A DNA stretch of 64,000 nt from Quercus robur (taxonomy: Eukaryota; Streptophyta; Magnoliopsida; Fagales; Fagaceae). A model generated the notes under the pieces. It did no database searches. It saw nothing but the letters and a program-made list of their open reading frames with translations, and was not told the origin of the DNA. The first letter of the stretch is position 1. The number at the start of each line of letters is the position of its first letter. Positions 4,733-63,154 of the stretch are shown in pieces. Where the stretch lies: contig NC_065536.1 in assembly GCF_932294415.1 (NCBI RefSeq), positions 7,624,474 to 7,688,473 of the forward strand, given 5' to 3'. Both the position numbers and the translations under genes were made by a program.

Positions 4733-6528
4733 GCCCTCGAAGATTGTCAGATTTTAGCTGACTTGAACGTGGATTTTTTGTCAAACTCTTCCTAAACTAT
4801 CAATTCTACAGACAGTTTAAACAACTCGCAAGCTGAGGATTTGTAGACATTGCTTAGTGCTGCCTTTAACAAACCAAGAAACATGTTCTGATGGCCTTCA
4901 AGTGGTAGCATCAGACCCTAGTGTTACAAATAGTGTATTAGACCATCTCTCTAATGGGACTGTGCTTTATAGCATATCTCTTGCACTTTGCAAGCATGGT
5001 TAGGTTCTTGAGACAGAGAGAGATTACTAGCAGAAAGGAAGCTCATATTTTCCGATGTGGAAAACGCCAAATACAATCTTTTCCCAAGAATGTCAAGCCC
5101 TGATGAAGAAACTAATGAGTCTATAACTGGGAGAAAGCTGTTTCAAACAATTCCAGGCAATGTATTAGTGAGCCAAAGGGTGGTAGTGAACCAAGATGGT
5201 AGTGGAAACTTCACCACTATCAACGATGCTGTGGCTGCTGCTCCAAACAATACTGGTACTAGCAATGGATATACTTTGTGATTTATGTGGTAGCTGGGGT
5301 TTACAGTGAGTATATTTCCATTGCTAAGAACAAGCAAAATTTGATAATGATTGGGGATGGTATCAACCGGACTGTGATCACAGGCAGTCACAGTGTGGCA
5401 GACGAATGGGCTACATTCAAATCCGCAACATTTGGTAAGCTAATTAAATTGCAACTTTAGACGTTCTGTGTTTGTATGTATATTTTAATTTCTTTCATGT
5501 TGAGACTCAAAGAAACAACTTAATTTAGTAATATACATTATTTTATAGTTGGGAAACCACATGCTCCCTTTTTCTTGAGTCAAATTAATTCAAACTTTCA
5601 ATCTTAAGTTACATTAGGAAGCAACTATAGAATTAATCATCTAAGTCATACTCTTAAGTAGTTAATTATTCACTAAAGATTTCATAGGAAACTATATGAT
5701 ACCAACCTCTTTTCTTATGAACAAATATTACAGCAATAAAAGATCTTTGATGATATATACATACATACACAGTAGTCTGACCCAAAATACTGCTTGTGAT
5801 GATCTATAATTTTATGGGCTATAATTTCTATTACAGCTGTGGTCGGGCAAGGATTTGTTGCTGTGAACATGACCTTTCGTAACACAGCAGGAGCAATCAA
5901 GGCCCAAGCAGTGGCAGTCCGAAATGGGGCAGACCTGTCCACATTTTATCGCTGTAGTTTTGAAGGCTACCAAGACACATTGTACACGCATTCTCTAAGG
6001 CAGTTTTATAGAGAATGTGATATTTATGGCATAGTTGATTTTATATTTGGCAATGCAGCGGTTGATTTCCAAGATTGCAATGTTTATCCACGACTTCCAT
6101 TGCAAGGACAATTCAATGCTATTATTGCGCAAGGCAAAACAGATCCAAATAAAAATACACGCACTTCCATACATAATTGTAGCATTAGGCCAGCTAATGA
6201 CTTAGCCTCTAGTAATGGAACTACAAAAACATACCTAGGGAGGCCATGGAAGGAGTATTCAAGAACAGTTTATATGCAATCTTTTATGAATAGCCTAATT
6301 GACCCCTTAGGTTGGCTTGAATGGAGTGGGACTTTTGCCCTTAGTACATTATATTATGCAGAATATAATAACACAGGACCAGGATCAAACACTAGTAACC
6401 GGGTTACATGGCCTGGTTACCATGTCATAAATGTGACAGATGCAATTAATTTCACTGTGTCCAAATTTATACTAGGAGATGCATGGTTGCCAGCAACTGG
6501 AATGCCTCACGCTGGTGGTTTGCTATAA
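4733..6528 (+). pseudogene. Pectin methylesterase pseudogene (PME copy 1), 5' truncated
   Basis: This is a type I PME (PMEI pro-domain plus catalytic domain). It begins abruptly at ALEDCQILADLNVDFLSNSS; the start codon and the first half of the PMEI domain are missing, replaced by the gypsy fragment. The remaining exon 1 is decayed. In-frame stops lie at 4793-4795, 4844-4846 and 5001-5003, with frame changes near 4865, 5050 and 5272. Exon 1 ends at 5434 with a GTAAGC donor; the intron is 5435-5836. Exon 2 (5837-6528) is fully open. It keeps the catalytic set: Asp of YQDTLYTH, Asp of GIVDFIFGNAA and Arg of LGRPWKEYSRT. It ends HAGGLL-stop. Decay is concentrated upstream, so the 3' exon may have stayed intact by chance or the loss is fairly recent. 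Expression of a full enzyme is not possible from this copy. Confidence 0.85.
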
Positions 6529-9271: not shown

Positions 9272-10523
9272 ATTTCAACCTTAGGTAAGGTGACATTAGG
9301 AAGCAACTCTATTATATGAACCACGTTTGCCCTATGTTTCCTCTAAAAGAACTCATATTTTAGTATTAAGTCAGTTGTCTTAATTTCAACTAAAGATTTC
9401 ATGGAAACTGTTGGTGGTGATATAGCCATCTCTCTTCTTCTGAGCAATTTTGTAAGGTAATTTTTGAACAAAAATGTACAGCTTATATGATGATCTATAA
9501 TTCTATGTATTATAATTTCTTTTGCAACTGCAGATGGTGAAGGATTTGTTGCAATGGACATAACCTTTTGTAACATAGCCGGGTCAATCAAGGAGCAAGT
9601 TGTGTCAGTCTGAAATGGGGCCAATTTTGTCCACATCTTATAGCTGTAGTTTTGAAGGCTACCAAGATACATTATATGCCTATTCTCAAAGGCAATTTTA
9701 TAGAGAATGTGATATTTATGGTACAATTACTTTTATATTTTGGCAGTGCAGAGGTAGTTTTCCAAGATTGCAACATTTATCTACAACTTCCATTGCATGG
9801 CCAGTACAATGTGCTATCACTACAAAAGGTAGAACAGACCCACAACAAACTACTGGGACTTCAATACATCATTGTAACATTAGGCTAGCTGAGGACTTAG
9901 ATGGAACAGAAACATACCTAGGGAGACCATGGAAGGAATATTCAAGAACTGTAATTACATGCATTCTTTTATGGATAGCCTAATCCACCCTTTGGGTTGG
10001 CATCCATGGAATGACAGTGACTATGCCCTTAGTGACAATTGACAGAGTTACATGGCCTGGTTACCATATCATAAATTAATGAAGATGCTGCAAATGAGTT
10101 TATTGCGTCCAATTTTATACAAGGAGATGAATGGTTGTCTACGACAGGAGTGCCTTACACGGGTGGTTTACAATAAACTTCACATTGTGATCCATCTCCA
10201 TGTTTATTGCATCTCTCTCTCATAATTAATGTTTCAACATTACGGTGAAATGATTAAGTTTAAACTTTTGGGAAATTAATAATTTACCAATTGATAAGGG
10301 TTTTTTCTTTTAAAGTTACTATGAGCAGGGACAAGCTACATGCATGGGTGGGGGGCATGGCCCCACAAAATTTTGAAAATTTTGTTAGCATATATATACA
10401 TGATGTCAATTAGAAAATTTCAAATCTTAGTCTAAAAAAATAGAAAAATTAAAATAACTAAGAAAAATATTCTTAATTTTCAACTTTGTGCTTTATGGTC
10501 CTTATTATTATTATCATTATTTT

Positions 10524-12550: not shown

Positions 12551-12560
12551 GGTATAAAGG
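12551..12560 (+). promoter_or_regulatory. Possible TATA box of the intact PME
   Basis: GGTATAAAGG lies about 22 bp before the ATG. It would imply an extremely short leader, so it may be chance. A second candidate, CCATTATAAACC, lies near 12331. Confidence 0.25.
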
Positions 12561-12580
12561 AGCTAGCTGCTAAATTCAAA

Positions 12581-14570
12581 ATGTCTAAAGAGAATCATAT
12601 AAGTAGGAAGAAGAAAATTACTGTTATCAGTTTGTCAGCCATATTCTTGGTGGCCTTGGTTGTAGCCGTGACTGTTGGCGTTAACCTTCATCATAGCTCA
12701 TCTAGTGATGATGATAAAAGTAGTAATAATTTATCTGCTACAATGAAAGCTATCCAACTCATCTGCCAGCCCACTGATTACAAAGAAGAATGTGTCAAGA
12801 GCCTTAGTTCTGAGGCTGGAAATACCACAGATTCAAAAGACCTCATTAAAGCTTCATTTAAGGCGGCAATGGATTACATCAATGAGGCTGCCAACAAATC
12901 CAATCTCTTGAAAGAGCTCGAGAAGGACTCGAGAGCCAAGAAGGCTCTTGATAGTTGCAAAGAGCTTATGGACTCCTCCACTGATGAGTTCAAGAACTCT
13001 TTCGATCAATTGGGAGATTTTGATGGCACCAAGGTAGACGAACTGCTTAATGATTTGAGGATTTGGCTCAGTGCTGCCATCACATACCAAGAAACTTGCT
13101 TAGACGCATTTCAAAACACGACCGGTGATGCTGGAGAGAAAATGAGGGCGGCATTGAAGTCTGCCATGCAAATGAGCAGCAATAGTCTTGCCATTGTCTC
13201 TGACTTGTCCAAAGTGCTCTCTAACTTTGATTTCCCTAGCCTTGGTCGTCGTCTTCTTGAACATGACGTGCCTGTTCTTGGCCATGGTGAACTATATCCT
13301 GATTGGTTCAATGATAGTCCTGGAAGTCGGAGACTCCTTGCTGCATCTCCAGCCCAGATTAAGCCTGACGTTATTGTAGCCAAGGATGGGAGTGGACGGT
13401 TCAAGACCATCAATGAGGCATTGCCTCTGATCCCTAAGAATAGCAACAAGACCTTTGTGATCTACATCAAGGAAGGAGTTTACCAAGAGTATGTAGAGTT
13501 AAACAAGTCCATGACTCATGTCATGATGATTGGTGATGGACCTCATAAGACCAGGATTACAGGAAACAGGAACTTTGTTGATGGCATACCCACCTTCAAA
13601 ACCTGTACAGTTGGTACGTAATACTTCCCAAATTGTCCCTTCTACCATTCGAAAATGATTCTCTCCATTTAAAATAGATTCATTTCATGGTTCAAATTAA
13701 ATATTAGGAATATTAGATATGTATTTGGTGTAACATTTATTTAGAATTTTAAATGATGTGAAACATTAATTATCTACTTATTTGCTAGCATGTTGTGGCA
13801 AATCAATGTATTATGAATGTTTCTATCTTTTCTTGAGACTAAAGGATTCAACTTATGCAGGTGTCTCCGGAGATTACTTCATTGCCAGGAATATTGGAAT
13901 TGAGAACACTGCTGGTGCTGAGAAACATCAGGCTGTTGCATTGAAGGTTCAATCCGACTTCTCTGCCTTCTACAACTGCTCATTTGATGGGTACCAAGAC
14001 ACGCTTTATGCGCACACCAAGCGCCAATTCTACCGCGATTGCACCATCTCCGGCACAGTTGACTTCGTCTTTGGTGATTCTGCTGCCGTCTTCCAAAAGT
14101 GTACTTTCGTGGTCCGCAAGCCAATGGACAACCAGCAATGCATCGTGACGGCACAGGGCAGGAAGGAGAGGCGCCAGCCATCAGCAATAATCCTCGTAGA
14201 CTCCAAAATTGTTGCAGACCCTGCATTCTACCCCGTTAGATTCCTACGCAAAGCATATCTAGGCCGTCCATGGAAGGAGTTCTCAAGGACCATCATCATG
14301 AAAACCCACCTTGATGATCTGATCCAGCCTGAAGGATGGTTACCTTGGTTAGGCAATTTCGGAATCAACACTTGCTTCTACACTGAGTTTCAGAACGTAG
14401 GACCTGGTTCAAATACAACACAACGAGTAAAATGGCCTGGAATTAAGACCATCACCAGTCAACATGCATTAGACTTTACACCAGGGAAGTTCTTTGGTGG
14501 TGATACTTGGATTAAGACTACCGGAGTGCCTTACCACCCTGGTTTTCTTAACGAAACAGACAAAACCTAG
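12581..14570 (+). CDS. Pectinesterase with N-terminal PMEI domain (type I), two exons
   Basis: This is a cell-wall enzyme that removes methyl esters from homogalacturonan. Exon 1 is 12581-13613 (donor GTACGT), the intron is 13614-13860 (acceptor TATGCAG), and exon 2 is 13861-14570. The joined frame is 580 residues, a normal type I length. The N-terminus is basic (SRKKK), followed by a membrane anchor at about residues 13-34. A PMEI pro-domain with its Cys residues spans about 54-205. Two RRLL processing motifs lie near residues 222 and 250, where Golgi subtilases cut in this family. The catalytic domain follows with Asp391 (YQDTLYAH), Asp412 (GTVDFVFG) and Arg480 (LGRPWKEFSRT), all present. 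FGDSAAVFQ replaces the commoner FGNAAAVFQ. From memory this and the overall sequence resemble the PME21/PME28-like group, partly pollen-expressed; that subgroup call is an inference. It is the only intact gene of the three-member cluster. Confidence 0.95.
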
Positions 14571-16943: not shown

Positions 16944-17537
16944 TGATAGAGAAGCGGAAAATAATCCATCTCCAGCTCGTCCAAATGGTTCGTCCAGAGC
17001 CTATAGCGCAGGTTGATCCAAGAGTCAATCCAGAAGAAGGAGAAACGTCCATTAAACAATAGCGTCACTCTATAAGTTAAGTCTCCCATGGATGACATGA
17101 TCGTCCATGAAGGTCGTCCATGAGCAGCCATCAGATATCCTTGGACAACCAAACAGTCCTACACCGGATGGACGAAAGCGCAACACTTGAATAAGTTAAC
17201 TCCCACTGGCGGTTATAGTTTTTATATCCGTTGAGGCAGTTAACTTCGGCGTTGTTGGATTCCACAAAACCTGGGGAGATTATTGGACAAATAACCGCCC
17301 CAGGCTCCCTATATAAGGGATCGGTCTGAACCCGACAGAGATAAGATTTTCTCTCAGACAAATTTCCAAAACACTTGGAACTTCATTCTCAACGAGTCTA
17401 ACTTCTCCATCGGAGGGGGTTCGACCGGTCATCTCCGGTCTCCTCTTTGATCGCGTTTTCTTCCTTGCAGGCCATCAACCATTTGAACAGCCCACCGAAG
17501 CCAGGCCATTCCACCTTACTGATTCGGAGCACTATCA
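16944..17537 (+). repeat. 5' LTR of element B
   Basis: It starts TGATAGAGAAG and ends GCACTATCA. A TATA-like CCCTATATAAGGG lies near 17309, the probable promoter. It is 594 bp, the same length as the 3' LTR. Confidence 0.95.
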
Positions 17538-17538
17538 G

Positions 17539-17556
17539 TTGGCGCCGTCTGTGGGA
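17539..17556 (+). promoter_or_regulatory. Primer-binding site of element B
   Basis: TTGGCGCCGTCTGTGGGA begins one base after the LTR. It starts with TGG, complementary to the CCA end of a tRNA. The tRNA identity is not certain. Confidence 0.75.
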
Positions 17557-17599
17557 AGCGAAGGTTGTTTTGCGACTTTCTTTTCCGTGACAAAAGGGT

Positions 17600-19600
17600 T
17601 AGGATGGTCAGGACCAGGTCGAGGGCTACTAGCCCTGGCCGTCAGGGAAGCAGAGGCGCTTCAAGTGATCCTCAGCGTGATCGCCAATCTGCACCAGCCA
17701 TGCAGACGTCATCCGTGCAGAATATGCAATCCATGGCGGCTGCAATGGCGGAATTGACTCGCCAAAACCAGGAGTTAAGGATGGAGATCACTCAGAGGAG
17801 ACAGACACGTGAGGAACATGCAGGGCAAACGCAAGGCCATGGTGACACACAGAATACTGAGATTGGAAGTCAGTTTAGAGGCACTACTTCACGGATAGTG
17901 CCACACTTGAAAGAGGAGATGGACCAAATGAAAAAAGTCATGGAGGAGATGAAGGAGAACATGAGGAGAACAAATCCTATAGAGGATTTGGTCCACAGGA
18001 CTGACTCTCCTTTTACGGCTGCCATCAATGGCCACCCTCTGCCATCAAAGTTCAAACTACCTTCCCTGGACTCGTATGATGGGACGCGTGACCCCTTCGA
18101 TCACATTGCAACATTCAAAACAACAATGCACCTTCAAGGGGTCCCTGATGAAATCATGTGTCGAGCCTTCCCTACTACCCTTAAGGCCCGGCACGAGTTT
18201 GGTTCAGTAAAATCCCCCCAAGTTCCGTAAGTTCTTTCGAAGAGTTAAGTAAATTGTTTGTTAACAATTTCATCGGGGGACAGAGGCACAAGCGCTCTTC
18301 GTCCAGCTTACTGACCATAGAACAAGGGGAGAACGAAAGCCTGCGGTCATTCATCACTCGCTTCAACAAAGAAGCCCTTAGTGTGGACGAGGTGGACGAC
18401 AAGCTTCTATTGGCAGCCTTCCACAATGGGATTAATTCAGATTTGTTTATCCACAAGCTATATGAGAAGGAGCCCCAAACCATGGCCGAGCTCGTCCATT
18501 CGGCTCAGAACTTCATGAATGCAGAGGATGCGATCATAGCCAAGAAGAGGAAAAGAGCTGAGAGGATGGAAGTGCACCCAGCTCGACACTCAGAACAAGC
18601 CCCTCGTCCAAAGAAGGGACGGACGGAAGATAGGAAGGAACGAGATAACAGGAAGACAGGTCCCTTGGGAAGAAGCCAGAACTATACGCCCCTAAATACT
18701 CCACTTAATCAGGTGCTCATGCAAATCAAAGACGATCCTTCTTTGAAATGGCCAGAGAAGATGAAAGGGGATCCTAACAAGCGCAATAAGAACAAATATT
18801 GTCGCTTTCACAGGGACCATGGGCATGACACGGATGAGTGTTATGACCTAAAACAGCAAATTGAGAACCTAATCAGACAAGGAAAGTTGAAGCACTTCGT
18901 TGGAAGGGATCGTACAGATGAGAAGCTGAAAGGCAAAATGGAAGAATCATCCCGGCCCCCACTAGGAGAGATAAGGATTATCGTTGGAGGGAACTCGATG
19001 AGGCAATCTTCCAAGTCGAAGAAGACGTATCTTAAAGCGGTACAAAACGTCCAGCTCTCTGGACGATCACCAAGGACGAGATCAATGGACGAGCCAACCA
19101 TTTCCTTCACCGACAAAGATGCTGAGAGGATCCATCACCCGCATGATGATGCGATCGTCATTACACTGCTCATTGCAGATTATACAACCAGGAGAGTGTT
19201 AGTTGACAATGGAAGTTCAGCAGACATATTATACTACCCCGCCTTCCAACAAATGAGGCTTGGACGAGATCAACTTCGTCCAGTATGCTCGCCACTGATA
19301 GGATTTGGAGGAATGAAGGTACAGCCCGTGGGTACCATTACATTACCAGTTGTGGTAAGGTCATACCCGCAACAGGTAACCAAGGAAGTCAATTTCCTTG
19401 TGGTAGATTGTGCATCTTCATACAACGCCATTATTGGAAGACCCACTCTTAATAGTTGGAAGGCGATAACTTCGACTTACCATCTATCAGTCAAATTCCC
19501 TATGGAGTACGGGATAGGACAAGCACAAGGAGATCAGTTGGCAGCTAGAGAATGCTACTTAGCCATGATGGCTTTGGACGAACAGGTGCAGACAATGAGC
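17600..19600 (+). other. gag and protease region of element B
   Basis: The gag part includes the DPFDHIATFKTTMHLQGVPD and SLRSFITRFNKEALSV blocks of the plant gypsy gag family. A CX2HX4GHX4C-type knuckle region follows (KYCRFHRDHGHDTDECYDLK, about 18800). The aspartic protease motif is VLVDNGSSADILY (about 19200), with an AIIGRPTLN block downstream. Gag packages element RNA and the protease matures the polyprotein in this family. Confidence 0.85.
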
Positions 19601-19899
19601 ATCGAGGAAAGAAGAGTTATTGCAGAGCCCACGGAAGTGTTGGAAGATGTTCTTTTGCAAGAAGATGATCCTGAGAAATTTACCAGAATTGGAACATGTA
19701 TGAAGGAGAAGGCAAGGGAAGACCTTATCCAGTTCCTGAGAAAAAGTATCGACGTTTTTGCATGGAGTCATGACGACATGCCAAGAATCGACCCAAGTGT
19801 GATCACTCATCGGTTGAATGTATACCCCTTTTTTAAGCCCATCCGTCAGAAGAAGAGGGTATTCGCTCCCTAGAGGGACAAGGCAATCAAGGAAGAGGT

Positions 19900-22825
19900 T
19901 CAAAAACTGACCACGGCAAAGTTCATTAAGGAAGTCTATTACCCGGATTGGTTAGCCAATGTGGTGATGGTGAAGAAAGCTAATGGAAAGTGGAGAATGT
20001 GCGTAGACTTCACTGACTTGAACAAAGCATGTCCCAAGGATAGTTATCCTCTGCCACGCATTGATCAATTGGTGGACTCTACTGCTGGCCATCAGTTGCT
20101 GAGCTTCATGGATGCCTTCTCAGGATATAATCAGATCAAGATGGATGAAGCTGATCAGGAAAAGACTTCCTTCATTACCAGCCAAGGCTTGTTTTGCTAC
20201 AAAGTGATGCCCTTCGGCTTGAAGAACGCAGGGGCAACTTATCAAAGGTTGGTGAATCACATGTTTCGTCCACAAATAGGACGGAATGTGGAGGTTTATG
20301 TCGACGACATGCTTGTGAAGAGCATAGACGAGGGAAGCCATCTAGACGACCTACAGGAAACCTTTGAAACACTTCGGCGATATAAGATGAAGTTGAACCC
20401 AAGCAAGTGTGCATTCGGAGTATCGTCAGGAAAGTTTCTGGGGTTCATGGTCTCGCAAAGAGGAATTGAGGCAAATCCGGACAAGATCCAGGCTATATTG
20501 AACATGGAGCCACCGAAGAGTATCAAGGAAGTCCAATCCCTCACAGGACGAGTTGCCGCTTTGAACAGGTTTGTTTCGAAAGCCACAGATAAGTGTTTAC
20601 CTTTCTTTAAAGTCCTCAGGAAGGCATTTGAGTGGACGGACGAATGCCAAAGGGCCTTCCAAGACCTGAAGAACTACCTCACAACTGCCCCATTATTAAG
20701 TCCATCCGTGCAAGGAGAAAAACTGTACCTATACTTAGCGGTGTCCCCACACGCCGAAAGTTCAGCTTTAATCAGAGAAGAGGGGAAAATACAAAAACCG
20801 GTGTACTACACTAGCCGGGCACTCAGAGGAGCGGAGGGAAGATATCCGCTCATGGAGAAATTGGCTTTTGCACTGATAACAGCCTTTAGGAAGTTAAGAC
20901 ATTACTTCCAAGTTCATATCATCAATGTCATGACGGACCACCCGCTTAAGAAGGCAATGAACAAGCTGGAAGCCGCAGGACGACTGATTCAGTGGGCAGT
21001 TGAACTTAGTGAATTCGACATTCGGTACCAACCGAGAAATGCAATAAAGGCTCAAGCTCTAGCAGATTTCATCGCAGAGTTCACCCCAAGTTACGAAGAC
21101 CTGGGGGAAGGAGAGTACAACAAATGGGTCATCCATGTAGATGGATCGTCTACATTATACGCTGGAGGAATAGGAGTTGTCTTGCAGTCGCCAGAAGGGG
21201 ACAAATTGAAATACAAGGTCCGTCTGCAATACCAGACTACTAACAATGAAGCGGAGTATGAAGCCCTTTTGAAAGGATTGGAACTGGCTAAATCCGTAGA
21301 AGCAGACTCAATACTTGTCCTGGGAGACTCTCAATTGGTCATAGGCCAAGTCAATGGCACATGTGAAGCCAAGGAAGACAGAATGAAGAAATATTTAAAG
21401 AAGGTAGTACGCCTTGTGAAGAAATTCAAAAAAGCAGATTTTGTTCAAATCCCAAGGGAAGAGAATGTGGAAGCAGATACTCTGGCGAAGGAAGCATCTG
21501 CGAATGAGGCGATGGATGAAATGGATGATGTACACTACATGCCAAGTATAGACCTTCCAGAATTGATGCAGATAGGGGGAGAAGGAAATTGGATGACCCC
21601 AATAGTATCATACTTAAAGGATGGAAGTCTTCCAGAAGAGAGGGACGAAGCTAGGAAGCTCAGGGTCAAGTCAGCCAGGTATGTGCTTATGGACGAAGTG
21701 TTGTATAAGAGAGGTTTTTCCCAGCCTCTCCTAAGGTGTTTGGCTCCGGACGAGGCAAATTACATGTTGAGGGAGGTTCACGAAGGAGCATGTGGGAACC
21801 ATTCGGGAGCCAGATCACTCGTTCATAAAGTCATCCGTAGCGGATTCTATTGGCCAACCATCCAAGCTGATGCTAAAGCATATGTCAAAGTATGTGATCA
21901 ATGTCAACGCTTTAGCAACATTCCCAGACAGCCAGCAGAATATCTCACGCCAATGATGGCCCCTTGGCCTTTCGCACAATGGAGACTAGATATTTTGGGG
22001 CCCTTTCCGACTGGAACTCGGCAAATGAAGTTTCTGGTGGTGGGAATAGATTACTTCACAAAATGGGTGGAAGCCGAACCCTTAGCCAAAATTACGCAGC
22101 AGAATGTCAAGAACTTCGTCTGGAAGAACATTGTATGCAGATTCGGAGTACCTAGAGTACTAGTGTCTGACAATGGACGACAGTTTGACAACACACCCTT
22201 CAGGGAATTTTGTGAACAACTTGGAATGAAGAACCATTACTCCTCGCCCTCCCACCCACAGGCCAATGGCCAGGCAGAAGTAGCGAACCAATCCTTGCTG
22301 AAGATCATCAAGACTCGGCTCGAAGGGGCAAAGGGGATATGGCCGGATGAATTACCAGGTGTTTTATGGGCTTATAGAACGACAGCGAGAACTCCAACAG
22401 GAGAAACTCCTTTTAAACTAGCCTACGGAAGCGAGGCAGTTATACCAGCAGAAGTACACATGACAAGCCACAGGGTGAGGAAGTATCAAACTGAGGAAAA
22501 CGAGGAACAGCTCCGTCTTAACCTTGACCTTATGGACGAGGTCAGGATGGATGCAGAACAAAGGACAGCAAGGTACAAAAATCTCATGGCAAGACAATAT
22601 GATGCTATGGTGAAGCCTAGGCGTTTCAACATCGGAGATCTCGTCTTGAAGAGGGTTACCCTGGCAACAAGAAACCCGGCCTATGGGAAACTTGGCCCAA
22701 ATTGGGAAGGACCTTATAGGATTATCAACTGCAAAAGGCAAGGATCCTACTATTTGGAAGCTTTGGATGGGCGGAGGCTGGAACACCCTTGGAATGTTGA
22801 GCACCTCAGGAAGTACCATCAATAA
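19900..22825 (+). other. Reverse transcriptase, two RNase H domains and integrase of element B
   Basis: The RT domain has the catalytic YVDDMLVKS near 20300. A gypsy RNase H follows (about 20710-21080, YYTSRALRGAEGRY, MTDHPLKK). A second, archaeal-type RNase H spans about 21125-21510 (WVIHVDGSS, TTNNEAEYEALLKGLELA, VLGDSQLVIGQ, EENVEADTLAKEA). Integrase has the zinc-binding HEGACGNHSG and CDQCQRF, then the core WRLDILGPFP, VSDNGRQFD and ANGQAEVANQ. The C-terminal end is WNVEHLRKYHQ. The double RNase H is diagnostic of the Tat clade. Confidence 0.95.
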
Positions 22826-53272: not shown

Positions 53273-53459
53273 GAAGTAAAGGTTTTAGACCGCAAATCAG
53301 ATCCATATCATTCTGGCTTAAGCTTATTTTCATACCATTCATTCAAGGTGGTTGAAGACAATTACTATGACAACTATAACCAATTAAGGAGAGAGAAGAG
53401 AGCAGAGTCATTAATTTCAATGCATTGACTAAAGACCAAAATCGAATCTGTATGCCTAT
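52878..53459. other. Spacer, no gene seen
   Basis: AT-rich DNA with a 29-bp A-run near 53240. A short decayed SINE-like stretch (GTGCAATTGGTAAATTGCTC, 53092) is possible. Confidence 0.4.
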
Positions 53460-53940
53460 CATAATGTCAACTACAAGAATCAATTCCTTTATATAATTGT
53501 TACTGGTGGCTAGTCACTAGTGCACCAATCTTTTGGGCTCCTTTCTTTTATTGAGAGTCTGAATTAAATTCTCTTTTCTTTTTCTTTTTTTCAATTCTAT
53601 AATGTCTAAGCTAGAGGTACGTTGCATTAGACCTAAGAATTAACATGCATTCTATTGCAGCTAATATTGGTTGTGTTAGGGCCTTAAGAAGCATGCATTG
53701 CTTGTGCTATGAGCCTATGAAAAAAAACAAAACATGAAATAAGATAATAATAAGATGTATTGAATTGTATCAATTATAAACCATTAGCTAGTACAAACTA
53801 TAGTAGATGTCATTGATACTTCATAGAATATGGAATATTTATTCAATTTTTTTGGTAACTAAAAACTAGGGCAACACGGAGATAAATGAGCACCAACTTG
53901 ATTGTTGGAAATCTTATTCATGTCAACATGGAATCAAGGC

Positions 53941-54453
53941 TTAGAGCTGATTGGTAATGGCTAACACATTGCTGCTTAGCTGGGTAAATTTGGTATTCGA
54001 AGCAGACATTGGAGACTTGATGGACTGATCTTGGAAACCTTGCTCACACGAGTCTGCATCGTTCATGGCAGCTGAAACCCATGTATTAACATCATTATAT
54101 TTCTTATTTCCCAAGGCAACGGTCGAGTCCTGAATTTGATCAATTGCATCTCCATAGTTCTCAGCGCAATCGGTTAGGGCTTGCTTCAAGCCCTCGTCCT
54201 TCGCTGAACCTTGCAGTTTGGTGATTTCGGCATTTATTTCGCCAGCTTTCTTCCCTGTATGTTTTAGTGCAACTTTGGCTATAGTCAGGAGATCTTTTGC
54301 TGATTTGGCCTCAGAGTCCAATTGAAGAGTGCTTAGGCACAGTGACTTGTACGAAGTATAACCACAAGCTCGATCAATCAAGTTCTGGCAAAAAATTTGG
54401 GTTGGAAAGACAGCCAAAAGAAGCACAAAGACGAGGCTTGAAATGGGATTCAT
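53941..54453 (-). CDS. PMEI-like / invertase-inhibitor-like secreted protein, copy 1
   Basis: Single exon, 170 residues. A signal peptide (MNPISSLVFVLLLAVFPTQI, about 1-22) is followed by a PMEI-fold helical domain. The conserved Cys pattern is present: Cys30 and Cys39 (ACGYTSYKSLC), then Cys in LTDCAENY and SCEQGF. The overall layout resembles small secreted PMEI/invertase inhibitors such as the plane-tree allergen Pla a 1. Whether it inhibits a pectin methylesterase, an invertase or neither cannot be told. The paralogue at 61143-61664 has nearly the same signal peptide but a strongly different mature part. It faces away from the epoxide hydrolase (57674, plus strand). Confidence 0.9.
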   Translation of the reverse strand: MNPISSLVFVLLLAVFPTQIFCQNLIDRACGYTSYKSLCLSTLQLDSEAKSAKDLLTIAKVALKHTGKKAGEINAEITKLQGSAKDEGLKQALTDCAENYGDAIDQIQDSTVALGNKKYNDVNTWVSAAMNDADSCEQGFQDQSIKSPMSASNTKFTQLSSNVLAITNQL

Positions 54454-54581
54454 GTTTTCACTATAATGTTTTCTTTTCAGATAAATTTTATGTTTTTAAA
54501 TAGGTGTGGTCAATCTAGCTATTGGACTTTTCTTTTTCTTTTTTGGGTGTTTTTGAGAAACTTGTAGCTATTGGACTATGG

Positions 54582-54589
54582 TTATATAG
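54582..54589 (-). promoter_or_regulatory. TATA box of PMEI-like copy 1
   Basis: On the minus strand CTCTATATAACC lies about 130 bp before the ATG. The same box and its surroundings are kept at 61786-61793 in the paralogue. Confidence 0.6.
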
Positions 54590-54866
54590 AGAAGAGTTGG
54601 AATGTGATCGGTTCTAAGTTCAATTACCTATTTTGAAAGATGATCTATAAAAAGTAAATGGAATATTTTAGTGCAGGATTGAATTACATATGACCACACA
54701 ACCACACTGTTTAACCAGTCCCTTTGATCTTATAGTGGTTATTATGAGTTGGTTGAATATAGAGTTTGTATTTAGAACCATCCACTCCCAAGTTTCCAGG
54801 AAAACTTTTCCATCTTACCTTTATTTTTAATTGACATAAGTGATTATTATCTTTTTGGGGTTAAGT

Positions 54867-55350
54867 AAGGGCCGGCCCTAGACATTTTGGAGCCTAAGGC
54901 GAGAACTAAAATTGGGCATTTTTTATACTTATGTATTAATTAAATTAATATTTATTTAATATATTTATATTATGATATATTTCATTTAAAATTTATTTTT
55001 TGGTGAATTTCTTGCTAATTAGTGATATGTTCATCTAAATTTTGTGTTATATTTTGTTTATTACTAATAACAAATTTATCCATTGATCCTTTTTGAGACT
55101 CAATTAGTTTTTCTTCTTTTTCTCTTTTTTTTAAGTTTTTCATATCCAAATGCATATTTTCTAGTAAACATTTCTAATCAAACAATATATTTATAAAGAC
55201 TAAAATAAAAAATAACTTTCAAGTATAGAGCAAATGAGAAATAGCACCTGATTTATATAAAAAATATTGTTGTAGTTTCATTGAACAATAACAAGTTTTT
55301 AGCAATCTCAACCTGCATAAATAAAGATTTATTCATTATATTACCAATAA

Positions 55351-55386
<36 letters not shown>

Positions 55387-56142
55387 AGATTAAAATTAAA
55401 GAAAAAAAAAAATAAGTATAGCCATAACAAAAGTACAAACCCAACCCAGCCAAGAAGATGCCAAGATGGCCACACAAGTCTTATTAATAAGACCCACCCA
55501 CAAAAAACACAAAACAAATCCTATTACACCAACAACAACAACCAAAAAAAAGAAGCCTTGAAGGCCCAAATGTCCAACCATAACTCAATATAAACAGGCC
55601 AGTCTTAACAAATAAAAGGTAGAGAAATCCAAGCCATATACCTCAAAAGTCAAAACTCATCCATCTATAGAATCAAAACGCAGTAGTGAGAAAAAAGAAA
55701 AAAAAAAAGAAAAAAGAAAAAAAAAAGGCAGTCGACAGTCCTCACTCCTCAATCAATTTAGAGTTTTTAGATTAGATGTGATCAAATGATTTAGATTGGA
55801 CGAAGCTTGAGCCAGGCAACTAGCAATAGTGGAGAGAAAGAATGAGATAGGCAGAGAGCAAGAGCTGAGAGAAAGAAGCTGAGCAAGAATGAGAAAGAGA
55901 AATGGTAAAAATTTTAGGGATTTGAGGTTTTTTATTTGTGATTGTTTTGTGGTTAATTTCTTAGACCGGATTTGTAGTTTATCTTGTTGAATTTTAGTTT
56001 GTCTAAAGGATAATGATGTTATTTTTGGGACAATTGATTTTGTTTAGACCAAAAAAAAAAATTTGTGCTACCAATGTTTATCTGGATATAATAGAAATTT
56101 TGTTTTTTGGTCAAAAGGATGTGCTAGATAGGCCCAGCCCTG
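54867..56142. mobile_element. hAT-like element, 1.28 kb, with preserved empty site
   Basis: GGTTAAGT occurs directly before (54859-54866) and after (56143-56150), an 8-bp target duplication. The ends AAGGGCCGGCCCTAG and GGCCCAGCCCTG are imperfect inverted repeats. The duplicated block at 62041-62060 shows the uninterrupted site (GGATTAAGTCTTGTTG). No transposase is visible. It inserted upstream of PMEI-like copy 1 after the segmental duplication. Confidence 0.85.
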
Positions 56143-56150
56143 GGTTAAGT

Positions 56151-57673
56151 CTTGTTGTATAAGAATGTTCTTCTCTATTTCATTTAATTATCTATTTTCC
56201 TAATAGAAGTTTGGGTACTTGTTTGGATCCAATATTAATCTATAAAGTATTGGTTCCATAGTCATGACCATTGTTAAGAATGAAGGGGCTTGATTTTACT
56301 TTCCTTCCCAAATAGAAATATAGGTGAGGGAAAATTGATGGGTTCTACCCCTTAGAAATAGGGATAAGATAACCAGAATTGCACATAAAAATTAAGAATA
56401 GGTTTAATGACAACTTTTTTCATAATTTGCTAAAGTAACTAATTGTGAATGATGGACAATATAAGTAGTGTTAGTACATATTTGATAGACTGTAATAGAC
56501 ATTGTAATGTGATGGCTATTCATATGGTTTAGCTATTTTTTAGTTAGTTATTTTTACACTACATAGAATAATAATTCCTTATGAATAGCTATTTTTCAAA
56601 ATGAGGAATAACTATTCCCCATTAAAAAATTTGTAATAGCTTTTTTTAGTAAGTGCAATAATCTCTAAAATTAATATATATTCAAATAAACGAACTTTTC
56701 ATATACAAGTAACAATTATAAAAATAAAAAATCATTAAAAAATAACTCATTTCTCTCTCAATTTTTTTTAAAAAAATATTATTTTAAAAAAATTGTATGA
56801 GTAAAATATTTCATAAAATAAATTTTAAGTTATATTCTAATGTTACAACTCACAACCAAACTTATGAATAGGTTTAATTATTCTATTACAACACATTTTA
56901 TTCTCAATAATAAATATTACAATTTTTGTCGTAATTCTCATTCAGTGTACTAAACATGCCTTTAACAGTAGGCTCATGTAAAAATAATTGTCAACCACTA
57001 ACAACTTGCCACCAACACGTTGCAAAAATAAAAATTAAAGAGAGTGAAATTTTGTGTCAATGGCAGAGTTGATAAGAGGAACAACAAATTGTAAAAATAA
57101 AAATTAAAGAGAGTGAAATTCGTTTCAATAGCAGGGTTGTTAAGAGGAACAAATCCCATTGTTGAAATTTCTAATTTTATGAATAGCACCAAAGTTTAAA
57201 ACTGAAATGGGAAAAGACCCACATTGAGTCATCATTGTATTCTGGTCCCTCCCATTAGCTATAAGCTATAGATGGTTTTAATAATATCTTCACAAAATTG
57301 GCATAGACTTACGCTTTCAAAGTTTTATTTATAAAATACTATCATGTATTTTTTGGTAAACAAATGCTATCATGTATGATTACATGTAATCCTGACATGA
57401 GCTCCAGCATTAATGTTCTGTTACTGTGTTCTTCCCCGACAGTCCTTTGCCTTGAAAAGCCACGCTAGACCTTCCCAAAAGCAGAAGCAAGTTATTTAAT
57501 TAGAGACTCAACTTTTCTGTGCCCTGCATTAACTCCTGTACTGTTCATAACACCTCTCTTTAAATCCACTAGCTAGCTACTTTCACCACCCTATGAAGCT
57601 TAAGCTCATGAGAAAGAGCAAGAGAAAAAAAAAAAAAAAAAAGAGTTTTTACTTCTTAGACAGAGAGACAGGC
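56151..57673. other. Upstream region of the hydrolase
   Basis: Shared with 62057-63150. It includes a 69-bp tandem duplication (starts 57022 and 57091) that is also present in copy 2 (62507 and 62576). A TATA-like CTTTAAATCC at 57558 lies near a TAGCTAGCTA stretch, about 115 bp before the ATG. No other gene. Confidence 0.6.
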
Positions 57674-59340
57674 ATGGAGGGGATAGATGATAGGATTGTG
57701 AGTGTCAATGGCATCAAAATGCACATAGCAGAAAAAGGACAAGGCCTAGCAGTACTATTCGTCCATGGCTTCCCTGAGCTTTGGTACTCCTGGCGCCACC
57801 AGATTCATGCTTTGAGCTCAATTGGATACCATGCTGTAGCACCAGATCTCTGGGGCTTCGGTGACACTGAAGCACCAACTTCCATCACCAACTACACCTG
57901 CGATCACATTGTCAATGACCTTGTTGCTCTCATTGACTCTCTGGGTGTGGACCAAGTGTTTCTTGTGGCACATGATTGGGGAGCCATCATGGGTTGGTAC
58001 TTGTGCTTGTTTAAGCCTGAAAGAGTGAAGGCATTTGTGTGCCTTAGTGTTCCATTCACGCCAAGGAGCCCACAGATGACTACTATATATGCAGATTTCA
58101 GGTTCTTGTTTAGCTAACATAACCAGATTTGGTTTCTTGTATGCTTAAATGATCATGTTTTAGTATAAAATCTTATTTGTTTAATCCCATTTACCTCTTT
58201 GGTGCCTAGTTTCTATGAAACAGCTGAAACAGTTAGGTAAGCAAGATTGTTTGATTTGAGCAAAGGCTCTCTAAGTCACATTATTTGCTTTGTTATGATT
58301 CTTGCTCAAGATTTTTAGGCTTAGACTTTAGTACACGTTACATTCCAAGTTATAAGAGGCTAATCTTGGACTCTGAAAATTGAAAACCAAAACATGGTAA
58401 CTAATATCTTATATCGCCACCCAATTTTACTTTGATATTTCCATATGTGTTGCAGGCACCAGGAGAAATTGAAGCTGAGATTGCTGAAATAGGTACAGCA
58501 AATGTACTCAAGACCATTTTATCAATTCGAAAACCAGGTCCACCCTGCTTCCCTAAAGGAAATGCATTTTTTGGAATCCGTACCAATGCTTCAATTTCCT
58601 TGCCCTCTTTGCTTTCAGAAGAAGAGCTTACTTATTATGTCACAAAATTTGACCAGAAAGGCTTCACTGGAGGATTGAACTACTACCGAGCAATTGACCA
58701 GTATGTTACAAACTTCAATGAAAATATTTCAAAATCTAAATGTCAAAACATTTCTTATGCTTAAGACTTGATATGTAACAAATTCTAGGTGCCCCTTTCA
58801 TGTTTAAGGTTTTAATTCTTAAATCTTACTATGTATAGAGTCATGTTTTTTAAAATGACTATAACTTAGATTTGTAATATTTAATATGAAACATGAGATT
58901 GATTCATTTCAGATGGAGATGATCCTCTTCCAAAACGCTCACCCGGCACGTTTTTAATCAACAAAAGAACCAAAATCTTGGGTTCACATAAAATATAAGC
59001 ATGAAACTTAAATCTTGGCCTTCCTTAACATTAAATATCCCAGTACTTTGGTATTCATAAAACAAACGTTTGAGAATTAGTTTCTGATTATTGCAGAAAC
59101 TGGGAGGTCACAAAAAAATGGACCGGAGTGCAAGTGAAGGTACCTGTGAAGTTCATAGTGGGGGATTTGGACATGGTGTACACCACCCTGGGGACAAAGG
59201 AATACATACACAATGGTGATTTCAAGAAAGATGTGCCATTTTTGGAGGAAGCTATTGTGATGGAAGGGGTAGGTCACTTCATCAACCAAGAAAGAGCAGA
59301 GGAAATCAGTTCTCACATCTATGACTTCATTAAGAAGTAG
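57674..59340 (+). pseudogene. Soluble epoxide hydrolase (alpha/beta hydrolase), frameshifted
   Basis: A plant sEH-type gene: exon 1 57674-58101, exon 2 58456-58700, exon 3 59097-59340, all GT-AG. The family hydrolyses epoxides of fatty acids. All catalytic parts are present: oxyanion HGFPELWYSWR, nucleophile Asp in HDWGAIMGW, Tyr in ELTYY and NYYRAID, Asp in GDLDMVY, His in GVGHFINQ. However, exon 1 is 428 bp. After PFTPRSP it jumps into DDYYICRFQ in another frame, losing roughly the 12-13 residues (usually ending ALFG) that separate these blocks. This is a frame-changing deletion near 58070. Translation as spliced would stop early in exon 2, giving about 155 residues. The rest is undamaged, so the loss looks recent. 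The upstream in-frame ATG at 57593 gives a Lys-run leader and is unlikely to be the start. Confidence 0.8.
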
Positions 59341-60709
59341 TTCAAATAAATTCTGTTAGTAAATACTGTAAATTGTGCACTGTTTCTATGGCTTCATTAG
59401 GAATTCAATCTGTCACCTCTTGTGGCACTAAGCTTGGTGGTTGAATAGACCTTGTCATATGATCTACAAGGCTGCTTTATTAAGTATGAATTTCTGTTTG
59501 AATATCTATTTCTTTACAGTTATTTCATTATTATTGAGAAGCACATATTGGTACATGGATTCCCCAAATCCCAGTTATTCATGGCTGGTTAAAATTTGAA
59601 TTTAAATTGTTGTGTTAAGACTCACTGAGTGTGTGTGTGTGTAAATTACTAGTAAAAAGAATTATATAGTTATTTTTGTAGAAGTGGAAGTTTAATGGAA
59701 GTAGATAGGAGCTTCTAAAAGAAGCCAAAAAGACTTTCATAAATTAAAAAATAAAATAACATAACCAAAAGGCTATGCAAGAATCAAAGAATGGCAAAAT
59801 AGAGATTTCTTGCTCGTCATGTCCCAATTATTGTTGGATTTAAGTGCAAAAGCCCACGTAAATATGATGGGCGTCTAAATGTATTAAACACCAATTAAGC
59901 CGTATTAATATTTTAGACTCCATAAAATAGGTTTGACTTATCTCCAGTACTTTAAAAAAAAAAAATTTATTTTTGTTTTAATAAAAAACTGTCATATCAC
60001 TCATTAACTAAATAAAATGTGAAGATTTAAATTCACTATCATTTGTTATTGTATATTTAAAATAAAAGAACATGTTCAATTAAAAAAAATACTTAAGCTA
60101 ACCCAAACCCCCCATGGAATTAGAAATTTGTGAAAATTCTGTGCTCACAAGGTGCATTGCACTCGTTTTGTATGTGACACAATCATTTGGGACAAGATTA
60201 AATAACCTAAATGAATTAGAATGCCACACTCATTAATCTTCCAAAATACTTCAAGTTCTTCATCTTATACCACACTACACCGTTCTCACATTGCAATATT
60301 TTTCGGAATGAATTTTAAGAAGAGGCAAAAATGGAGAGAAAGATCAATAGCTCAAGAAGGAGTTGTGTTTCAAGGATTTGGATCCAATAAGTATTGCACT
60401 GGGTGCAATACTACTAATTCATCTCACATTAATTTTTACCATCTTATTTTTAAACTTTAACTTTAATACTTTTTAATTTTTTTTTTAATTCATTCAATCT
60501 CAATTTGTGTTTCAACAATATGCACATCCACGCGCACCCAAAAAAAAAAAAAAAAAAAAAATTCAAATGTCACTCTCAAGATTGAAGTTGTCAACGCTGC
60601 AATGCCCAATAAAGAAGATGTTATGGATGTGAAAGGAATCATTTCTACTGGGTGTGTGTGGTAAAGTCTGACCTGTTGAAATCAATGTTGGATGTGATTG
60701 ATTCAAGTA
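59341..60709. other. Spacer between hydrolase and second module
   Basis: This holds the hydrolase 3' flank, a (GT)n run near 59631 and A-runs. A frame at 60566-60650 reads NVTLKIEVVNAAMPNKEDVM, which looks protein-like but is too short to identify. Confidence 0.45.
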
Positions 60710-61142
60710 TCATAATGTCAAATACAAGAATCAATTCCTTCATATAATTGTTACTAGTGGCTAGTCACAAGTGCAACAACCTTTCGGGCTCTTTTTTTTT
60801 TTTTAATTGAGACTGCATTAAATTCTCCTTTTTGTGTTTTTTCATTTCTATAATGTCTAAGCTAGAGATACGTTGCATTAGACCTAAGAAATAACAGGCA
60901 TTCTATTGCAGCTAATATTGGTTGTGTTAGGGCCTTAATTATGAAGCATGCGTTGCTTGTGCTATGAGCCTATGAAAAAAAAAAAACATGAAATAAGATA
61001 ATAATAAGATTTATTGAATTGTATTAATTATAAACCATTAGAATATGGGATACTTTTAGATGAGCACCAACTTGATTGGGCAACACGGATATAAATGAGC
61101 ACCAACTTGATTGTTGGAAATCTTATTCATGTCAACGTGGAA

Positions 61143-61664
61143 TCAAGGCTGAATGTGATAGATAATGGATTCCGCATTGTTTTGCATCTGGCTAAGTTTG
61201 GTAGTCCAGTCAGATATTGGAGACTTGGAGCGTTTACCCTCGAAACCTTTGTCACACAATTGTCTATTGACCGTGGCCTCTGTCAGCCGGGCTTTAGCAG
61301 CAGTAACGTTGCCCTGTGAGAAGGAAGTTTCCGCGGCCTGAATTTTCTCAATTACAACGATAAATTTGTTAGAGCAATTGACTAGGGCATGCCTCACGGG
61401 CCCTCGCCCTGATGATTCTTTCAGTCCTTCGATATTGGAATCTACAATGTTAGCTTCATACTCTGTATGTTTTAATGAAACTTGGGCTAAAGTCTTGAGC
61501 TCTTTAGCTGAATGGGCCTCAGAGTCCGGTACAAGAGTTTCTAGGCACAGAACCTTATAAATGGTGTAACCACAAGCTTCTTCAATCAAGGCGGTCTGGC
61601 AGAGAATTTGGGTTGGAAAGACAGTCAAAAGAAGCACAAAGACGAGGCTTGAAATGGGATTCAT
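61143..61664 (-). CDS. PMEI-like / invertase-inhibitor-like secreted protein, copy 2
   Basis: Single exon, 173 residues, starting at the ATG of MNPISSLVFVLLLTVFPTQI. An upstream in-frame ATG at 61724 falls in what is promoter/leader in copy 1 and is not preferred. Signal peptide about 1-22; PMEI fold with Cys in EEACGYTIYKVLC, LVNCSNKF and QLCDKGF. The signal peptide matches copy 1 at 21 of 23 residues. The mature part matches at only about 52 of 147. Residues that are conserved use almost the same codons. The gene looks intact, and target specificity may differ from copy 1. Confidence 0.9.
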   Translation of the reverse strand: MNPISSLVFVLLLTVFPTQILCQTALIEEACGYTIYKVLCLETLVPDSEAHSAKELKTLAQVSLKHTEYEANIVDSNIEGLKESSGRGPVRHALVNCSNKFIVVIEKIQAAETSFSQGNVTAAKARLTEATVNRQLCDKGFEGKRSKSPISDWTTKLSQMQNNAESIIYHIQP

Positions 61665-61785
61665 GTTTACACCATAACGTTTTCTTTTCAGATAAATGTT
61701 ATGTTTTTGAATAGGTGTGGTCAATCTAGCTATTGGGCTTCTTCTTTTTTGTGTTTTTGAGAAACTTGTAGGTATTGGACTATGG

Positions 61786-61793
61786 TTATATAG
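61786..61793 (-). promoter_or_regulatory. TATA box of PMEI-like copy 2
   Basis: CTCTATATAACC on the minus strand, at the same distance from the ATG and in the same context as in copy 1. Confidence 0.6.
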
Positions 61794-63154
61794 AGAAGAG
61801 TTGGGATGTGATCGGTTCTAAGTTCAACTACCTATTTTGAAAGTTGATCTATAAAAAGTAAATGAAATATTTTAGTGCAAGATTGAATTACATATGACCA
61901 CACAACCACGCTGTTCAACCAGTCCCTTTGACCTTACAGTGGTTATTACGAGGAGTTTATACTTGGAGTCATCCACTCCCAAGTTTCTAGCAAAACTTTT
62001 CCATCTTTCCTTTATTTTTAGTGGACATAAGTAATTATTATTTGATCGGGATTAAGTCTTGTTGTATAAGAATGTTCTTCTCTATTTCATTTAATCATCT
62101 AATAGAAGATTCGGTACTTGTTTGGATTCAATATTAACCTATAAATTATTGGTTCCATGGTCATGACCATTATTAATAATGAAGGGGCTTGATTTTACTT
62201 TCCTTCCTAAATAGAAATATGGGTGGGGGGGAAATTGATGGGTTCTACCCCTTAGAAATAGAGATAAGATAACCAGAATTGCACATATAAATTAAGAATA
62301 GGTTTAATAACAACTTTTTTTTTTTTTCATAATTTGTTAAAGTGATAAATAGTGAATGGTGGTAAATATTTAGTAAACTGTAACAGATATTGTAATATAA
62401 TAGCTATTAAAGGCATATTTAGTATATTAGTATACTAAATATGCCTTTAATGGTAGGCTTATGTAAAAATAATTGTCAACCAATTACAACTTCCCAAAAA
62501 CAAATTGCAAAAGTAAAAATTAAAGAGAGTAAAATTTTGTGTCAATAGTAGAGTTGACTAGAGGAACAACAAATTGCAAAAATAAAAATTAAAGAGTGTG
62601 AAATTTGTGTCAATAGCAGAGTTATTAAGAGGAACAAATCCCATGGTTGAAATTTCTAATTTTATGAATATCACCATAGTTTAAAACTGAAATGGGAAAA
62701 GTCACACATTGAGTCATCATTGTATTCTGGCCCATCCCATTAGCTATAAGCTATAGAAGGTTTTAATAATGTCTTCACAGAATTGGCATAGACTTAATTA
62801 TGCCTTCAAAGTTTTTTTTGGTGAATGAATGTACGCGAGTTTAAAGTTTAAAAAATGCTATCATGTATGATTACATGTAATCCTGATATGGACATACTTT
62901 CTTGGAGAAGTTCCTTGTTAAACCAGTCTCACATGTGCTCCAGCATTTATGTTATGTTATTGTGTTCTTCCCCGACAGTCCTTTGCCTTGAAAAGCGAAG
63001 CTAGCCCTTCCCAAAAGCAATAGCAAAGTTATTTAATTGGAGACTCAACTTATTTGTGCTTTGCATTGACTCTTGTACTTGTCATAACACCTCTCTTTAA
63101 ATCCACTAGCTACTAGCTAGCTACTTCCACCACCCCAAGAAGCTTAAGCAGTTA

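Follow-up and report, generated by a model that had tools for sequence, protein, structure and literature searches.

Positive selection on the mature domain of a duplicated PMEI-like gene family in Quercus robur

Introduction

How can two neighbouring genes keep almost the same promoter and signal peptide while their mature products share little more than a third of their residues? The question is raised by two genes resembling those of pectin methylesterase (PME) inhibitors (PMEIs), here called A and B, in a stretch of 64,000 nucleotides of the oak Quercus robur (C3:7624474-7688473; hereafter the window). An earlier note on this DNA had proposed diversifying selection as the answer. Plant genes seldom reach an omega (dN/dS) well above 1 when it is taken as the mean of an entire domain. 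For PMEI domains, passages of PMC3741192 report Ka/Ks above 1 in the eudicots tomato, Arabidopsis and poplar, and excerpts of PMC5983585 place 51 of 52 pairs of Brassica campestris PMEI paralogues under purifying selection. A literature search of titles and abstract openings in open-licence text found no account of the present PMEI-like family, and the terms 'pectin' and 'invertase inhibitor' are absent from the main text of the oak genome paper PMC6086335.

Results

Genes A and B

Gene A (53941..54453) and gene B (61143..61664) are intact single-exon PMEI-like open reading frames on the minus strand, of 170 and 173 amino acids respectively; a plus-strand reading was rejected for both on account of its many stops. 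They match PF04043, the profile of the plant invertase/PME inhibitor superfamily, at 117.4 bits (A) and 57.5 bits (B), with a cut-off of 29. A is of the canonical type and has kept the SAA motif, B is of the fast-evolving type and has lost it. The N-terminus is hydrophobic and near-invariant in all 12 copies of the family described below and, by its sequence, is a predicted signal peptide, covering residues 1-23 in A (54385..54453, minus strand) with putative cleavage after residue 23, and 61596..61664 (minus strand) in B, where the cleavage site is likewise putative. From this part of the sequence we infer that the proteins of the family are exported.

Between the two signal peptides, 2 of 23 residues and 3 of 69 bases are different, leaving the same 21 identities that had been counted before. 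The mature domains (53944..54384 in A and 61146..61595 in B, minus strand) share 53 of 147 ungapped residues, against about 52 (35%) in the earlier note, and differ at 61, 51 and 40 of the 147 codons at the first, second and third codon position. Where a residue is shared, the codon is mostly the same: the earlier count of 34 of 39 becomes 48 of 53 over the whole mature part.

Each gene lies in one copy of a duplicated unit (53457-57605 for A, 60708-63149 for B) which is broken up by insertions and whose ungapped repeat blocks are 85-97% identical. The 5' flank of A, comprising the 5'UTR and proximal promoter (54454..54866, minus strand), is homologous to that of B (61665..62057, minus strand), as are the 3' flanks of the two genes (53457..53940 and 60708..61142, minus strand). 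Within the 300 bases upstream of the ATG, 21 of 293 positions differ; the earlier note had put the noncoding flanks at about 90% identity or more. The description of flanks and signal peptide as frozen needs qualification: they have indeed changed little, but at approximately the rate of silent sites, and it is the mature part which is the anomaly.

Twelve copies in the genome

The pair is real, but the two-gene picture was incomplete. When the 786 Mb genome was searched at the DNA level with 475 bases from the upstream flank and signal peptide of A, 12 places matched, and a protein search with B put the same 12 on top, followed by a drop from E 2e-33 to 6e-10. We named the copies A, A2-A4 (contig C3) and A5 (contig C37), which form the A group, and B, B2, B3 (contig C3) and C1-C4 (contig C5), the seven copies of the B/C group. 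All 12 open reading frames are intact, the proximal promoter and signal peptide are common to all of them, and length changes are few and short, leaving an almost gap-free alignment. A 700-base flank alignment of the 12 copies was noise past about 300 bases upstream and was left out of the analysis. No relatives of A were confirmed when contigs from bacterial and archaeal genomes were scanned. Elsewhere in the plant genome, two PR-10 exons have beech Fag s 1 as their best match (155.9 and 171.9 bits, with 141.5 and 142.4 for the runner-up), which points to a probable place in the Fagaceae; two further exons turned out to be MLP-like and carried no information on this.

Between A and B, on the plus strand, lies a three-exon gene (57674..59337) which we take to be soluble-epoxide-hydrolase-like and which was co-duplicated with the PMEI unit. 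Its next copy (L071), just outside the window, has an ATG and an in-frame stop in exon 2. This pair gave dS 0.069, dN 0.056 and omega 0.82 (302 codons, 2dl 0.4), with introns 3.4% and 4.6% and the 3' flank 5.2% different. Exons of this gene also occur close to B3 (L046) and to three of the four contig C5 copies (L051, L053, L054); they were not found within the few kb around A2-A5 (L047-L050), B2 (L045) and C2 (L052). Partial exons at L046 (omega 3.3 and 0.93, 80 codons) and L053 (2.0 and 0.70, 131 codons) did not differ from 1. Given the in-frame stop of L071, this neighbour appears to evolve about neutrally and is no control for purifying selection. At about 0.6, dN between the two PMEI-like genes exceeds the noncoding divergence of the duplicated unit roughly tenfold.

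Pairwise comparisons and control loci

For the mature parts of A and B, NG86 gave dS 0.22, dN 0.55 and omega 2.5 (bootstrap 1.6-4.1), and GY94 maximum likelihood gave dS 0.16, dN 0.59-0.65 and omega 3.6-4.2, with omega=1 rejected (2dl 19.5-22.2). A dS as high as dN, which had been named as evidence against selection, was not seen: dS is far lower and of the order of the flank divergence. The likelihood estimate is about twice the flank value, which is reached by the profile interval of about 0.08-0.28.

The likelihood comparison was run on the mature parts of all 66 pairs of the 12 copies. Omega was 2.5-4.9 in the 35 pairs of an A-group with a B/C copy (2dl 11-25) and 2.2-7.4 in the 18 B/C pairs other than those among C2-C4 (2dl 4.3-25.6, dS 0.05-0.15), in which the 300 upstream bases diverge by 0.03-0.06. 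Between B, B2 and B3, dS is about 0.05 and 32-40% of the mature residues are different. Values were 0.7-1.5 in the three pairs among C2-C4, 0.16-0.57 in the six among A2-A5 and 0.86-1.4 in the four of A with A2-A5.

Other PMEI loci of the same genome served as controls. For the first set, 150 matches were scored of 216 candidates and loci were taken for the best 30, five of which were family members; 24 of the remaining 25 were usable (L027 was dropped). Among the 115 pairs that were at least 35% identical, one had omega above 1 (dS 0, 2dl 1.6). The 101 pairs in the 35-55% range had dS of at least 0.94 and omega of at most 0.41, with a mean of 44% identical codons at shared residues, compared with the 48 of 53 of A and B. 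In a second set of 20 small PMEI-like loci, hand-picked from lower-scoring matches, omega exceeded 1 in five of 33 pairs, and in three of these (omega 2.7, 2.1 and 1.9) 2dl was above 3.84. Milder signs are thus present in two further small clusters of PMEI-like loci, with omega about 2-2.7 in some pairs. Some small PMEI-like clusters in this genome are therefore also fast-evolving, and of all those tested the A/B/C family is the most extreme.

Codon models across the family

Codon models were fitted with our own code, whose one-ratio likelihood for the 12 copies (-2520.10) agrees with that of IQ-TREE (-2520.13). Under the one-ratio model omega was 2.6 for the 12 copies (2dl 44.7) and 3.5 for the whole domain in the B/C group (2dl 43.4); the A group had no excess (0.71, 2dl 1.4). 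Site models in the B/C group gave 71.2 for M1a/M2a, 79.8 for M7/M8 and 71.2 for M8a/M8; they placed 62% of sites in a class with omega 6.1, and 47 of 150 sites had a posterior above 0.95 by naive empirical Bayes, not BEB. Null simulations stayed far below these statistics: the largest 2dl was 6.86 in 60 simulations under omega=1, against 43.4 in B/C, and 5.08 in 40 simulations under M1a, against 71.2. The proposal of diversifying selection has thus come through a codon alignment, dN/dS estimates and site tests with other family members.

Where in the tree did the change occur? In a five-ratio branch model omega was 4.7 on the stem (2dl 16.0), with about 115 nonsynonymous and 9 synonymous changes, and 7.0 on the deep B/C branches, namely B, B2, B3, C1 and the C-stem (2dl 65.9). 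The A2-A5 tips had omega 0.26 (2dl 8.9), and neither the C2-C4 tips (0.79) nor the A branches (1.4) differed from 1. Since the youngest branches (C2-C4, A2-A5) have no excess, the selection may have been a burst which is now over. Of 91 columns, the outgroup majority agreed with A at 27 and with B/C at 10, and had neither state at 54.

Conversion, recombination and artefacts

Trees of the flank with signal peptide and of the mature part have the same main clades (A2-A5; B/C), so the mixed-lineage phylogeny that had been considered as a refutation was not seen. Either half of the mature part also gives these clades. Within B/C, support for the flank tree is weak, and B3 takes another position in it. 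Our own PHI-type test found no recombination signal in B/C (p 0.40) or in the 12 copies (p 0.91).

Two-change-point fits were made for 10 pairs, with the signal peptide end at 69 and the stop at 513 as reference points. The divergent stretch ran from 52-91 to 503-514 in A and B3, from 80-98 to 503-523 in A and B2, and from 69-98 to 491-508 in A and C1; in A and B the 3' limit was loose (508-623). The mature part was loosely bracketed in B2 and B3 (42-121, 475-542) and in B3 and C4 (86-121, 508-608). B and B2 diverge from 140-180, and in both this pair and B and B3 the end lay about 100 bases beyond the stop. Only an inner stretch was delimited in B2 and C1 (start 122-145, end 379-386), and in B and C1 the start was 107-147 and the end anywhere from 368 to 641. 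Excess change is therefore largely confined to the mature region, with a less tidy fit within B/C.

When codons with a single difference were taken alone, silent changes were too few (p below 0.01) in seven of eight pairs with B/C members; no such deficit was found in C1-C2 (p 0.12) or in three A-group pairs. This persistence led us to reject multinucleotide mutation as the source of the excess. Alignment error was rejected because the alignment is near gap-free and both mature halves give the same main clades, and hypermutation because it would raise dS too.

Fold and motifs

AlphaFold2 models, built on 12 related sequences, predict an N-terminal hairpin and a four-helix bundle for both A (mature domain pLDDT 90) and B (pLDDT 86); the B model has the PMEI fold and matches 1xg2_B, 1rj4 and 2cj8. 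Four cysteine columns of the mature part, which may form the two disulphides typical of the superfamily, are invariant in all 12 copies, and A2-A5 carry a fifth cysteine. Passages of PMC8990755 give an SAA motif in alpha6 as the mark of PME inhibitors and a PKF motif in alpha6 as a mark, though not a universal one, of invertase inhibitors. SAA is present in A and A2-A4, with STA in A5, and is lost in all seven B/C copies (TEA, TEA, KDA, SEA, TKA, KKA, TKA). On inspection of the alignment, PKF was absent from all 12 copies. Selected sites are biased to the helix side opposite the hydrophobic moment (p 0.0002, on ideal helix geometry rather than coordinates), although the hydrophobic side is not free of selection (mean posterior 0.35-0.65).

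Discussion

In this work we have found that omega clearly exceeds 1 both on the stem and among the B/C copies; these are the parts of the tree on which selection acted, and none is seen in the A lineage. Our preferred reading, to which we give a probability of roughly 0.65, is that a PMEI scaffold was retargeted in B/C, with repeated positive selection exerted by a coevolving extracellular partner. A two-gene unit of a PMEI-like inhibitor and an epoxide-hydrolase-like gene would have been duplicated in tandem and onto another chromosome. The B/C lineage would then have come under strong and repeated positive selection across most of the mature domain of a secreted PMEI-fold protein, while the proximal promoter, signal peptide, four cysteines and predicted fold were kept. 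The B/C protein would still be exported, having departed from an earlier PME-binding mode, and the exposed faces of its helical bundle may bind a changing extracellular partner, perhaps a pollen or pistil molecule or an enzyme from some pathogen or herbivore, and selection would then favour differences between the copies. A changing partner is the simplest cause of a rewritten surface on a kept fold. From paralogues of one genome, we infer an arms-race role.

Could the same pattern have arisen in other ways? If gene conversion had homogenised the flanks around mature domains of separate older lineages, dS should be high, as in the control PMEI pairs, and not 0.05-0.28 as in the high-omega pairs here; the shared main clades of flank and mature trees and the PHI-type tests also speak against it. 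C2 and C3 differ at only one of 300 upstream bases yet have a mature dS of 0.075, and some flank homogenisation may occur, but we consider conversion very improbable as the general cause. We give still less credence to relaxed constraint or pseudogenisation after duplication. The neighbouring epoxide-hydrolase-like gene, with omega 0.82 and the in-frame stop of its L071 copy, might suggest such a history; however, relaxation would bring omega near 1 rather than to 3.5-7, and the open reading frames and four cysteines are intact in every copy, with few and short length changes. Low silent divergence, shared clades and the lack of a recombination signal thus leave neither conversion nor relaxed constraint as an explanation. 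A harder question is whether the B/C proteins were refitted in one adaptive burst to a new stable task (as inhibitor of another enzyme target, or as a storage, antimicrobial or allergen-like protein) without an ongoing arms race. Much of the change indeed lies on the stem alone and the latest branches, C2-C4, are back at omega 0.79, but selection went on along the B, B2, B3, C1 and C-stem branches, and B, B2 and B3 have become very different at a dS of about 0.05. We therefore regard a single burst as unlikely.

If the partner does keep changing, what might it be? A reproductive one, in pollen-pistil or pollen-tube wall recognition, is a tentative suggestion by analogy: excerpts of PMC8990755 and PMC12239637 describe PMEIs and PMEs acting in pollen tubes and styles, and a maize cross-incompatibility gene is, according to passages of PMC6534598 (see also PMC9010485 on Ga2), a pistil-expressed PME. 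Alternatively, the partner could be a pathogen or herbivore enzyme, with B/C proteins acting as defence inhibitors in the manner of PGIPs against fungal polygalacturonase, which we hold to be somewhat unlikely. Positive selection is familiar in wall-defence inhibitors. Parts of PMC8990755 link proteins of the PMEI family to plant-pathogen interaction, and the same source states that none of the PMEIs characterised to date inhibits microbial PMEs, which weighs against this role. It is improbable that these proteins are small, endosperm-secreted factors in a maternal-offspring conflict in the seed; excerpts of PMC13197225 report that micropylar and chalazal endosperm of Arabidopsis is enriched in small secreted proteins with PMEI motifs, but the selection analysis described there covers single-copy orthologues only. 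These papers on pollen, defence and seeds are precedents, not evidence, for the genes studied here.

Returning to the coevolving partner, we propose, as a possibility we would put below even odds, that B/C is a recognition system: a set of secreted bundles in many copies, taken off housekeeping PMEs, which would read or block a fast-changing partner. Examples would be a pollen-pistil barrier, specific to species or genotype, in a tree of the Fagaceae, and an inhibitor repertoire against pathogen or herbivore enzymes. The conserved (A) and hypervariable (B/C) copies share promoter and signal peptide and so offer a natural experiment in scaffold retargeting. Should the partner be reproductive, the family would be a candidate for the molecular basis of crossing barriers; with an enemy enzyme as partner, it would be a PMEI counterpart of PGIPs, contrary to the statement on microbial PMEs in the part of PMC8990755 cited above.

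How does the family compare with known systems? Positive selection on eudicot PMEI domains is already in print (PMC3741192), which counts against uniqueness. The portion of that study considered here concerns the same domain and uses pairwise yn00 on members of the family, at Ks values of as much as 2.5, whereas the present comparison has low dS, site and branch models with null simulations, and sites placed on a predicted structure. In contrast to the PMEIs of kiwi (AcPMEI, 1xg2_B) and Arabidopsis (AtPMEI1, 1x8z), the B/C group has lost SAA and evolves at omega 3.5-7; AcPMEI has a Thr before the bundle cysteine, and the aligned site is variable in B/C. The cell-wall invertase inhibitor NtCIF of tobacco (1rj1, 1rj4, 2cj4-2cj8, 2xqr) has the same fold as B and is both its best PDB sequence match and the top Foldseek match of its model, but PKF is absent from the oak copies and identity is 21-24%. 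Abalone lysin, LURE peptides and PGIPs are recognition or defence proteins with omega above 1. Their folds are unrelated to that of the B/C proteins, which may nevertheless resemble them in being secreted and in having kept fold and signal peptide while the surface was replaced, and a comparable role in recognition or defence is suggested by this analogy.

Among the 12 genome copies of the PMEI family, the mature proteins carry one to three N-glycosylation sequons in the B/C group and none or one in the A group, and the positions of these sequons differ, i.e. they turn over from copy to copy. The calculated pI of the mature proteins is 5.0–5.2 in the A group versus 5.5–8.6 in the B/C group.

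Upstream of the PMEI open reading frame, the gene copies C2 and C3 (loci L052 and L053) differ at 1 of 300 bases, whereas their mature dS is 0.075, and because of this disparity local homogenisation of the flank is possible. The epoxide-hydrolase-like copy just beyond the window (L071:243-1937) has an in-frame stop in exon 2 and is therefore likely to be a duplicate in decay.

Three stretches on the plus strand of the window look, by eye, like PME-like genes or fragments, at 5803-6528, 9579-9983 and 12551-14570, the last with its own PMEI pro-domain (L018). They lie at most about 55 kb from the PMEI genes. Could they be targets, or are they neighbours by chance? Either is possible. Long plus-strand ORFs at 17317-22825 resemble, by eye, the polyprotein of a gypsy-type LTR retrotransposon.

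Two further small PMEI-like clusters were observed, L076-L078 (contig C4, 82.30-82.32 Mb) and L084/L085 (contig C5, 4.61 and 4.66 Mb). Three pairs from these clusters gave omega values of 1.9–2.7 (2dl 4.0–7.5), and their evolution is possibly of the same kind as that of the 12-copy family.
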